From assembly GCA_947595585.1 (NCBI GenBank), contig CANQET010000001.1, positions 1-64,000 on the forward strand: a stretch of 64,000 bases of DNA, in the 5' to 3' direction. The translations under genes were made by a program, and so were the position numbers. This DNA is from an uncultured Clostridia bacterium. Lineage in GTDB: Bacteria > Bacillota > Clostridia > Christensenellales > Borkfalkiaceae. Below, in pieces: positions 25,705-29,302 of the stretch. Numbering within the stretch: position 1 is the first letter of the stretch; every line of letters begins with the position of its first letter. The notes below the pieces were generated by a model. The model was not told the origin of the DNA, ran no database searches, and saw only the letters and a list, made by a program, of their open reading frames with translations.

Positions 25705-26352
25705 ATGGATCCTACGGCACTCTTTCGCCTTTCCTATGGCGTGTATATCGTCACGAGCTGGAACGAGGGTACGCCGGTGGGCTGCGTCGCCAATTCCGCG
25801 ATGCAGATAACCGCCTCCCCCGCAACGATCGCGGTGAGCGTGAACAAGCAGAACTTCACCCACAAGGCGATCGAGGACTGCGGCTACTTCGCCCTCTCGG
25901 CGCTCTCGGAGAAGTCCGATCCCAAGCTCATCGGAAGATTCGGCTTCACGTCTTCGCGCGATACCGATAAATTCGCGGGGACGCCCTACGCGATCAAGGG
26001 CAAGCTGCCCGTCATCACAGACGGCGTCGCCTATTTTTGCTGTAAGGTCGTCGCCACGATGGATACCCCGACGCACACCGTCTTCTTAGGCGAAGTCTAT
26101 GAGGCCGAAAATCTGCAGCGCGCAAAGCCCATGACGTATGCCTACTACCACGAGGTGCTGAAAGGCAAGACGAGCGCGCTCGCACCCACCTATCAGGCCG
26201 AGGAGCCCGAAGGCGCCGAAAAGGCGGTTTGGGTGTGCACGATCTGCGGCTATGAATACGACGGCGAAGTGCCCTTCGAGGAGCTCCCCGAAGATTGGGT
26301 CTGCCCGCTCTGCGGCGTCGGCAAGGAATTCTTCAAAAAACGCGAAAATTAG
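25705..26352 (+). CDS. Flavin reductase domain fused to C-terminal rubredoxin (Hrb-like)
   Basis: Flavin-reductase-like N-terminus; [35 protein letters not shown] rubredoxin. Confidence 0.9.
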
Positions 26353-26482: not shown

Positions 26483-26533
26483 TTGACAAGATACCCCGTG
26501 GAGGTATATACTATGTATACCCCCGTGGGGTAT
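26483..26533 (+). promoter_or_regulatory. csoR-copA promoter with two CsoR-type operators
   Basis: TTGACA-18-TATACT; ATACCCCGTGGAGGTAT (26491-26507) and perfect inverted repeat ATACCCC-CGT-GGGGTAT (26517-26533). Confidence 0.85.
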
Positions 26534-26558: not shown

Positions 26559-26855
26559 ATGGAAACCTGTTGCTGCACTTCGAAGACGAAGGTCCGCACC
26601 GAAGAGGAGAAGAAAAAGATCATCGCCCGCCTCAGCCGCATCGCGGGGCAGATCGGAGGCGTAAAGCGCATGATCGAGGAAGACCGCTATTGCGACGACG
26701 TACTCATCCAGCTCGCCGCCATCGATAAATCGGTCAAGAGCCTTGCGGGCGTCATCCTCGAGAGCCACATGCACTCCTGCCTCATCGAGAACATCGAAAA
26801 GGGGAATTATGCCGTGGTCGATGAGATCGTCGATCTCTTCAAGCGGTTCCAATAA
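26559..26855 (+). CDS. csoR: CsoR-family copper-sensing repressor
   Basis: RLSRIAGQIGGVKRMIEEDRYCDDVLIQ...HMHSCLIE (C-H-C ligand pattern). Confidence 0.9.
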   Translation: METCCCTSKTKVRTEEEKKKIIARLSRIAGQIGGVKRMIEEDRYCDDVLIQLAAIDKSVKSLAGVILESHMHSCLIENIEKGNYAVVDEIVDLFKRFQ

Positions 26856-26857
26856 AG

Positions 26858-29302
26858 ATGAAACATCGTTACAGCATCACGGGCATGACCTGTGCGGCGT
26901 GCGCGGCGGGGATCGAGCGCACGGTGAAAAAACTCAAGGGCGTGACGTCCTGCGCCGTCTCTCTCATGGGGGAGAGCATGGAGGTGGAGTACGACGAAGC
27001 CCTTCTCGACGAGGCGAAGATCCGCTCGGCCGTGTTCTCACTCGGCTACGGCGCCTACGAGGAAGGCAAGGCGCCCAAAAAGACGCGCGGCATCCCGCTC
27101 ATCGTGCGCTTTCTCGTCTCGCTCGCCCTGCTCCTTCCGCTTATGTATCTTTCGATGGGGGAAATGCTGAAGCTCCCCGTCCCCGGGGGATGGTGGAACC
27201 ATGGCTTCCAGATCGGGCTTGCGACGGCGATCCTTGCCGTAAACCATGCCTTCTTCGTCAGTGGCGTACGTGCGGCCTGCAAGCTCGTGCCCAATATGGA
27301 TACGCTCGTCACCCTCGGCGCCGCGGCTTCGTATTTCTACAGCATCGCCGCGCTCATCGTCATGCACACGGGCGGGGAGATGATGCACCTCTTCTTCGAA
27401 TCGGCGGCGATGATCGTCACGCTCGTCACCCTCGGGAAATTCCTCGAGGAGAAGAGCAAGAAGCGCACGGGCAAGGAACTCGAGAAGCTCCGTGCTCTCG
27501 CCCCCCAAACGGTGACCGTGGAGCGGGAGGGCAGGGAATGCCGCATTCCGCTCTCCGAAGTCGAAGAGGGGGATACCGTCGTCGTCAAACAGGGGGAGAG
27601 CATCGCGGCCGACGGCACCGTGCTCGAGGGGCATGCCTTCGTCGACGCCTCCGCCGTGACGGGGGAGAGCCTGCCCGTGGAAGTGGGCACGGGAGACCGC
27701 GTCACCAGCGCCTCGCTGCTCTCCGGCGGATACTTAAAGCTCCGTGCCGAGAAGGTGGGGGAAGATACCATGCTCGCAGGTATCATCCGCATGGTGCGGG
27801 AAGCGGGGGCGAGCAAGGCGCCCATCCAAAAACTTGCCGACCGCGTCTCGGCGATCTTCGTGCCCGCCGTCGTCTGCATCGCGCTCCTTACCTTTCTCAT
27901 CTGGATCTGTATTACGCGCGATATCACCAAAGCGATCAACTTCAGCGTGAGCGTGCTCGTCATCTCCTGCCCCTGCGCGTTGGGGCTCGCGACGCCCGTT
28001 GCGATCATGGCGGCGACGGGGCGGGGGGCCTCGCTCGGCGTCCTCTATAAGAACGCGGAGGCCCTGCAGAAGATGGCAAGCGTCAAAGAAGTCTTCCTCG
28101 ATAAGACGGCGACGCTCACCGAAGGAAAGCCCAAGGTCGTCTTCTTCGAAGGGGACGATACGGCGAAGAAAATTGCATATGGGGTCGAAAAAAAGCTCAA
28201 TCATCCCCTCGCGCAGTGCATCGTGGACTACTGCGGGGAGGGCTTTACGGCCGAGGATGTTTCCTACATCCCGCGGCAGGGTGCCGTGGGGAAGGTAGGC
28301 GGGAAGACCTATTTCCTCGGCAACGAGACGCTCATGCAAATGCGGGGCGTGAAGTTCGAGGCACAGCTTGCGCAGTTTACAAAGCTCACCGAAGAGGGCA
28401 AGACGGTGCTCTTCCTCGCGGATGAAGAAAAGGTCCTCGCCATGTTCGGCCTCGCGGATACCCTGAAGGCGGATAGCCGCGCGGCGGTGGAGGAGCTTGG
28501 TGCCCTCGGGTGCGTGCCCATCATGCTCACGGGAGACAACGCCGCCGTGGCGAAGTATATCGCACGGGAGGCGGGCTTCCCCGATTGGGATATGTGCGTA
28601 TGCCCCGAACTTCTTCCCGAGGAAAAACTCGACCATGTGCGCCGCATGCGCGTACAAAATGAACAGGCGAAGCAGGAGAAGACCGCAAAGCGGGCCAATT
28701 CTTACGTCGCCATGGTGGGGGACGGCATCAACGACGCCCCCGCCTTAAAGGAAGCCGATATCGGCATTGCGATCGGGAACGGGACGGACGTCGCCATCGA
28801 GAGTGCGGACGTCGTCCTCGTCAAGGGGGACCTTGCCGCCGTGCCCGAGGCCATCCGCCTCTCCAAGCGCACGATGCGCATCATAAAACAGAACCTCTTC
28901 TGGGCGTTTTTCTACAACTGTATCGGGATCCCGCTCGCGGCAGGGGCATTTTCCACCCTCGGCGTCGTGCTCGATCCCATGATCGGCGCGGCGGCGATGA
29001 GCCTCTCTTCGCTGTTCGTGGTGACGAACGCTCTGCGGCTCACGATCGGGCAAAAGTCGAACATGGGGGCGAAAAAACAGCAAAAAGGAGGGAATACCAT
29101 GCAGCGTGTTGTAAAGATCGAAGGCATGATGTGCGAGCACTGCGCAAAGCGCGTCGAGGCGGCCCTTGCAGCCGTTTCGGGCGTCGAGAGCGTCGAAGTC
29201 AAGCTCAAGAAGAAGTCGGCCGTCGTCAAGGGTGAAGCGGATGTCGCGGCGCTCAAAGAAGCCGTGAAGGCGGCGGGGTACGAAGTCGTCGGCATCGAAT
29301 AA
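26858..29302 (+). CDS. copA: Copper-translocating P-type ATPase with N- and C-terminal HMA domains
   Basis: GMTCAAC, TGESLPVE, SCPCALGLATPVA, DKTATLTEG, MVGDGINDAPAL, C-terminal GMMCEHC. Confidence 0.93.
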   Translation: MKHRYSITGMTCAACAAGIERTVKKLKGVTSCAVSLMGESMEVEYDEALLDEAKIRSAVFSLGYGAYEEGKAPKKTRGIPLIVRFLVSLALLLPLMYLSMGEMLKLPVPGGWWNHGFQIGLATAILAVNHAFFVSGVRAACKLVPNMDTLVTLGAAASYFYSIAALIVMHTGGEMMHLFFESAAMIVTLVTLGKFLEEKSKKRTGKELEKLRALAPQTVTVEREGRECRIPLSEVEEGDTVVVKQGESIAADGTVLEGHAFVDASAVTGESLPVEVGTGDRVTSASLLSGGYLKLRAEKVGEDTMLAGIIRMVREAGASKAPIQKLADRVSAIFVPAVVCIALLTFLIWICITRDITKAINFSVSVLVISCPCALGLATPVAIMAATGRGASLGVLYKNAEALQKMASVKEVFLDKTATLTEGKPKVVFFEGDDTAKKIAYGVEKKLNHPLAQCIVDYCGEGFTAEDVSYIPRQGAVGKVGGKTYFLGNETLMQMRGVKFEAQLAQFTKLTEEGKTVLFLADEEKVLAMFGLADTLKADSRAAVEELGALGCVPIMLTGDNAAVAKYIAREAGFPDWDMCVCPELLPEEKLDHVRRMRVQNEQAKQEKTAKRANSYVAMVGDGINDAPALKEADIGIAIGNGTDVAIESADVVLVKGDLAAVPEAIRLSKRTMRIIKQNLFWAFFYNCIGIPLAAGAFSTLGVVLDPMIGAAAMSLSSLFVVTNALRLTIGQKSNMGAKKQQKGGNTMQRVVKIEGMMCEHCAKRVEAALAAVSGVESVEVKLKKKSAVVKGEADVAALKEAVKAAGYEVVGIE
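29099..29302 (+). CDS. Possible independently initiated CopZ-like copper chaperone nested in frame in copA (67 aa)
   Basis: aaaaaGGAGGgaataccATG in frame with copA; product MQRVVKIEGMMCEHCAKRVEAAL...VVGIE. Confidence 0.55.
   Translation: MQRVVKIEGMMCEHCAKRVEAALAAVSGVESVEVKLKKKSAVVKGEADVAALKEAVKAAGYEVVGIE

Follow-up and report, generated by a model that had tools for sequence, protein, structure and literature searches.

The question raised by this locus is whether one open reading frame can specify both a copper pump and a free copper chaperone. The window, that is, the whole stretch of 64,000 nucleotides that was analyzed, carries a copper operon in which the pump gene copA runs in frame into a C-terminal HMA domain, and a ribosome-binding site followed by an ATG lies in the linker ahead of that domain. 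As judged from the sequence, the locus is very probably best explained by copA and copZ sharing a single open reading frame that is translated from two start codons, which would give CopA with a tethered domain and, in addition, free CopZ. The features of the operon are as follows, all on the + strand.

26483 to 26512, + strand: csoR-copA promoter, sigma-70-like TTGACA-18-TATACT (consensus scan, 11 of 12 matches).
26492 to 26506, + strand: CsoR-type operator with one mismatch, TACCCCGTGGAGGTA (palindrome match).
26518 to 26532, + strand: CsoR-type operator, the perfect palindrome TACCCCCGTGGGGTA (palindrome match).
26559 to 26855, + strand: csoR, copper-sensing repressor of 98 amino acid residues (Pfam PF02583, 98.8 bits).
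26858 to 29302, + strand: copA::copZ fusion open reading frame, copper P1B-ATPase of 814 amino acid residues with an HMA domain at the N-terminus and another at the C-terminus (ORF list, Pfam).
29042 to 29098, + strand: linker of 19 residues, TIGQKSNMGAKKQQKGGNT, which follows the last membrane segment and holds the internal ribosome-binding site.
29085 to 29092, + strand: internal Shine-Dalgarno (SD) sequence AAGGAGGG, encoding K-G-G (anti-SD duplex of -12.3 kcal/mol; nucleotide-level conservation in the genus).
29099 to 29302, + strand: nested copZ, a predicted CopZ-like HMA protein of 67 amino acid residues running from the internal ATG to the shared stop (Pfam HMA, 70 bits; PDB matches; AlphaFold2).

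A PF02583 gene, operator palindromes and copA were thus found in one unit, as expected of a CsoR-regulated copper efflux operon. One of the CsoR-type operators lies inside the csoR-copA promoter and the other just downstream of it; the chance expectation for the pair was 0.05, and the two palindromes match the dual CsoR sites of gut Clostridiales (PMC4938975). The copA ATG is located only 2 nt past the csoR stop, and the next gene after copA encodes an ArsR-type regulator. Directly 5' of the operon, a flavin-reductase-like protein with a rubredoxin-like C-terminal domain is encoded at 25705-26352.

The internal ATG (29099-29101) is codon 748 of copA, lies in frame and closes the sequence GCAAAAAGGAGGGAATACCATG. 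An earlier sequence-only reading of this DNA had placed an SD sequence ahead of this ATG, and the analysis agreed: the end of GGAGG is spaced by 7 nt from the A of the ATG. The same reading had deduced an HMA protein of 67 residues with the motif GMMCEHC from the internal start, and this was recovered by Pfam; its size and motif are those of stand-alone HMA proteins (about 65-75 residues, GMxCxxC). The GM, C, H and C of the nested HMA domain were invariant among 30 relatives, and the 67 residues aligned over their full length with the sequences of solved CopZ structures in the PDB. When the nested product was modeled with AlphaFold2, a complete beta-alpha-beta-beta-alpha-beta arrangement with the ferredoxin-like HMA fold was predicted (pLDDT of 95 over 67 residues), and the predicted CopZ superposed on the CopZ structure 6ff2 and on 2qif with TM scores of 0.91 and 0.88-0.90, respectively. 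No other CopZ gene was found in the genome of the window, the sole further HMA domain belonging to a distinct 700-codon open frame.

For the genus survey, 103 genomes were searched and 96 loci besides the window were fetched; the counts rest on the 96 loci, one of them the window, in which the end of copA could be read. The C-terminal HMA domain was fused in frame to copA in 84 of these 96 loci, and the junction ATG was kept in all 84, placed 7 or 8 codons before GMMC and exactly 8 in 83 of them. An SD duplex of -8 kcal/mol or better was predicted for 97.6% of the 84 junction ATGs, versus 5.2% of the 1,896 other in-frame methionine codons of the genus copA genes. The bases encoding K-G-G form a strong predicted ribosome-binding site, in line with the sequence-only reading, and the nested SD exceeded copA's own SD in strength in 64 of 72 genes. 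Conservation of the SD in close homologues with the same fusion had been named beforehand as a test that could refute the nested start; the SD is present in them, which favors the nested start. The conserved nested arrangement is not due to chance. The fusion is common to the whole genus, so that a recent stop loss confined to the window strain was ruled out, and an assembly artefact was ruled out by the 84 genus loci together with isolate genomes, including the complete chromosome of Aedoeadaptatus ivorii NCTC13079 (L189).

The remaining 12 of the 96 genus loci (L092, L094, L095, L098-L100, L102, L106, L124, L125, L127 and L128) carry a copA that ends soon after the last membrane segment with no adjoining copZ, and no strong free copZ was listed for their genomes. 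Since the C-terminal HMA domain was lost from these loci without an adjoining copZ, the nested product appears to be dispensable in some species. In several of the 12, a terminator-like sequence or a tRNA was observed within about 150 bases downstream.

The sequence-only reading had advised checking relatives for a stop codon just before the internal ATG. No genus locus shows a stop or a frameshift between copA and a following copZ; in other families of the class, a copZ set apart by a stop is common. The linkers of the genus range from 11 to 140 residues, and 21 of them exceed 40 residues. The 2,389 linker codons contain 0 stops when read in frame, compared with 43 and 109 in the two alternative frames, although the zero is partly definitional since loci were called fused by their open frame. 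The lack of an in-frame stop in variable, repeat-swollen linkers nevertheless indicates that the fusion, with its continuous frame, is maintained; the internal start is kept alongside it. The long linkers (L111, L114, L119, L120, L123 and about 16 more genus loci) were swollen by translated intergenic-type repeats, among them PLEGEVARSAER, RHPELVEGS, HSERSEESP and PSVAPLPQDERV, which in every case kept the frame and lay on the 5' side of the internal SD.

The peptide encoded before the junction methionine was not conserved (KGD, KGE, QGE, QGG, SED, SEE, KEI, QED, KEV and others), yet each version spells an SD sequence. Selection on the nucleotides was analyzed by a codon test that is blind to the SD and compares synonymous codon choice at fixed positions with each gene's own usage. 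In the genus, Gly(-4) was encoded by GGA in 70 of 71 cases (9.1 expected), versus 16 of 87 for glycines elsewhere in the linker (11.5 expected). In the wider set, which consists of the best 80 relatives from one-per-species genomes, Glu(-4) was encoded by GAG in 47 of 50 cases (25.4 expected), while the linker glutamates elsewhere showed the opposite bias, GAA being preferred (GAG in 26 of 118); codon -5, which precedes Glu(-4), ended in G in 45 of 48 cases (24.7 expected). Two codon registers spell the SD, KGD/KGE/QGG and SED/KEI/QED, and the register switched at least 5 times on the tree of the CopA body, with at least 2 of these switches forced by supported branches, while the spacing to the ATG was kept (trees were built with FastTree and as quick trees). 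When each sequence was recoded synonymously by itself, p <= 0.01 was reached at 3 of 84 junctions, a procedure of low power in which the residues themselves favor an SD; because the encoded residues nearly force the SD, this per-sequence result is weak and the signal lies in the pooled codon test. The codon test and the register switches show that selection on the SD goes beyond the encoded amino acids. The nested start region also had a GC content of 0.38, versus 0.62 in copA, and a predicted folding energy of -4.6 versus -18.3 kcal/mol, being more open than the copA mean in 83 of 83 cases. The sequence-only reading had proposed either internal initiation or a copA-copZ operon whose stop was lost; the results support the two in combination, as an old, genus-wide fusion in which the copZ start and its SD are under selection.

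The wider set was mostly made up of Clostridia (Ruminococcus, Gemmiger, Butyrivibrio, Blautia, Faecalibacterium, Acetobacterium, Hornefia and Schaedlerella), alongside a few records that bear other labels, among them Treponema and Desulfovibrio. Among its best 80 relatives, 78 were fused and 72 of these 78 had an ATG start, while L133 had a GTG start with a perfect AAGGAGG. Four fusions from beyond the genus (L154, L187, L200 and L207) had no internal start at all. An HMA gene lies immediately downstream in L154 and L207, and a CopZ of 71 residues (65 bits) is encoded elsewhere in the genome of L187; for L200, a weak candidate for a free CopZ was the only one found. Fused copA genes with nested-start-like junctions were also observed in L164 (labelled Desulfovibrio) and in L151 and L155 (labelled Treponema), and could be explained by gene transfer or by mis-binned contigs.

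An even draw from the class, about one locus per family and 60 loci in all, was made with a query without the HMA domain to avoid favoring the fusion, and unclear junctions were resolved by eye. Half of these copA genes (30 of 60) were fused, and each of the 30 has a junction start codon (29 ATG and one GTG, the latter in L258). A clear SD was found in 27 of the 30 fusions; in L215, L216 and L261 the SD was weak and the ATG was kept. Of the 30 unfused genes, 17 had a separate copZ directly downstream. The wider and class samples overlap in at least two genomes (L189/L274 and L133/L258), and L130 belongs to the genus of the window. On the CopA trees, changes between the fused and the separate state occurred 6-7 times. 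Small HMA frames of 84-103 codons near a second P-type ATPase (G018:C1:2430, G024:C23:25311 and G034:C4:5906, corresponding to L212-L214) perhaps represent a separate metal system.

The presence of a free CopZ elsewhere in the genome was then related to the fusion. With a cutoff of 50 bits, a free CopZ was found in 26 of 28 genomes with an unfused copA versus 4 of 29 with the fusion (Fisher p = 7e-10), a value that ignores relatedness, the related genomes in these counts not being independent. When the tree was controlled for, 3-6 independent pairs were obtained, which pointed in the same direction and were too few to reach significance.

In the two-start model, a single CsoR-repressed mRNA would carry copA::copZ. 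Translation from the copA start would give the pump CopA with a CopZ-like domain tethered at its C-terminus, and ribosomes would also load at AAGGAGGG in the linker and start at the ATG at 29099 to produce the free CopZ of 67 residues, which may carry Cu(I) to CopA and CsoR. Given that copA begins 2 nt behind csoR and, in most of the genus, has an SD weaker than the strong nested one, more free CopZ than CopA could be made. The tethered domain might likewise deliver copper to the pump. The arrangement is probably a copA-copZ operon in which the intervening stop was lost or never present, the ribosome-binding site of copZ having been kept by selection. The model is based on the sequence, its conservation, selection at the nucleotide level, the open frame, the predicted open mRNA and the predicted complete fold; from these we infer that the short protein is made, what its ratio to CopA would be and that it acts as a chaperone.

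A plain gene fusion, in which the C-terminal HMA domain serves CopA in regulation or delivery alone, with the SD and ATG persisting as relics of an ancestral copZ that stood by itself, would account for the maintained in-frame continuity, and L154, L187, L200 and L207 demonstrate that a fused C-terminal HMA domain can exist without a nested gene. A relic would be expected to decay, however, whereas the ATG of the genus survives in 84 of 84 loci and the SD is kept while the surrounding linker turns over completely; the codon-level selection on the SD and the register changes likewise argue against it, and three of the four fusions without a start have a free HMA gene elsewhere, next door in L154 and L207 and in the genome in L187. 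This explanation is therefore considered unlikely. Release of a free CopZ by a protease that cuts the linker, or its expression from an internal promoter, is very unlikely as an alternative to internal initiation. Clipping is conceivable in a linker that varies and is probably flexible, but both routes leave the GGAGG at a fixed spacing to a conserved ATG or GTG unexplained, as well as the open mRNA, and the consensus scan of the + strand between 26513 and 29099 returned no sigma-70-like promoter, and none inside copA ahead of the nested start.

SD-like sequences within coding regions have been proposed to slow ribosomes, and the stretch in copA follows soon after the last membrane segment, as a programmed pause aiding membrane insertion or folding of CopA would have it. 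A pause needs no start codon, yet an ATG or GTG is kept at initiation spacing; moreover, the spacing to the last membrane segment ranges over 11-140 codons, so that the SD keeps its place relative to the HMA domain rather than to the membrane domain, and a pause is regarded as highly improbable. There is hardly any likelihood that the chaperone is made from copA by -1 frameshifting after the N-terminal HMA domain, although the same gene family yields CopZ in this way in E. coli, where the chaperone derives from the N-terminal HMA domain (Meydan et al. 2017 and Drees et al. 2017, cited in PMC7558416 and PMC10187127). The -1 frame of the window is open over 26743-28050, so that a slip would give a long unrelated tail, and the slippery heptamers in the first 140 codons of the relatives were scattered, with no conserved place. 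A slippery site with a close -1 stop, as in the E. coli type, was not found in the window, and no conserved one was found in the relatives.

The two-start model resembles E. coli copA/CopA(Z) in that a pump and a CopZ-like chaperone are (here by prediction) obtained from one copA gene; it differs in that internal initiation would yield the C-terminal HMA domain, and in that neither a conserved slippery site nor a short -1 frame is present. If correct, this would be a second, mechanistically unrelated route for copA to give both a pump and a chaperone, C-terminal internal initiation as opposed to N-terminal frameshifting in E. coli. Cas11 is a C-terminal small protein made by internal in-frame translation of cas8/cas10 (McBride et al. 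2020, cited in PMC11899642; Sailer et al. 2025, PMC11899642). As with Cas11, an internal start in a larger in-frame gene, a small predicted C-terminal product and conservation in relatives were found here, and a conserved internal start with its own ribosome-binding site was present both in the genus and in the wider set (the 72 of 78 with ATG, plus L133 with GTG). The Cas11 subunit joins the same complex, whereas the predicted CopZ would be a soluble metal carrier and the full-length protein keeps a tethered copy.

The gene order, the HMA chaperone and the type of ribosome-binding site are shared with the operonic copA-copZ of 17 of the 60 class loci and of Listeria, where csoR, copA and copZ are separate genes of an operon (PMC4938975); there a stop separates the genes, while the frame of the window is continuous. 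The HMA domain after the last membrane segment of the window copA is also a feature that it has in common with CopA of Archaeoglobus fulgidus. An HMA domain follows the last membrane segment in that protein too, and to our knowledge no nested start is known for it. In L174 (Catenisphaera adipataccumulans), CopA was observed to carry two tandem C-terminal HMA domains, the second of which is preceded by PVKKEDTRM, resembling another nested start.

In-frame nested genes are generally missed by annotation pipelines. In a survey of gut Firmicutes, CsoR and CopA were present while CopZ was missing, an absence that was called noteworthy, and of the ten commonest genera of Clostridiales just one had a CopZ homologue (PMC4938975). 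It is likely that about half of the families of Clostridia do encode CopZ, as a gene nested in frame in the 3' end of copA, so that the pump and a free chaperone would come from one message. The apparent absence of CopZ in gut Clostridiales would then be explained by a copZ nested inside copA, and the published view that they lack CopZ in the CsoR regulon (PMC4938975) would be overturned. A literature search, whose coverage was incomplete and took in few subscription papers, brought up no previous description of a clostridial copZ nested in copA. The layout is carried by cultured species, among them Ruminococcus albus, Gemmiger formicilis and Acetobacterium tundrae.
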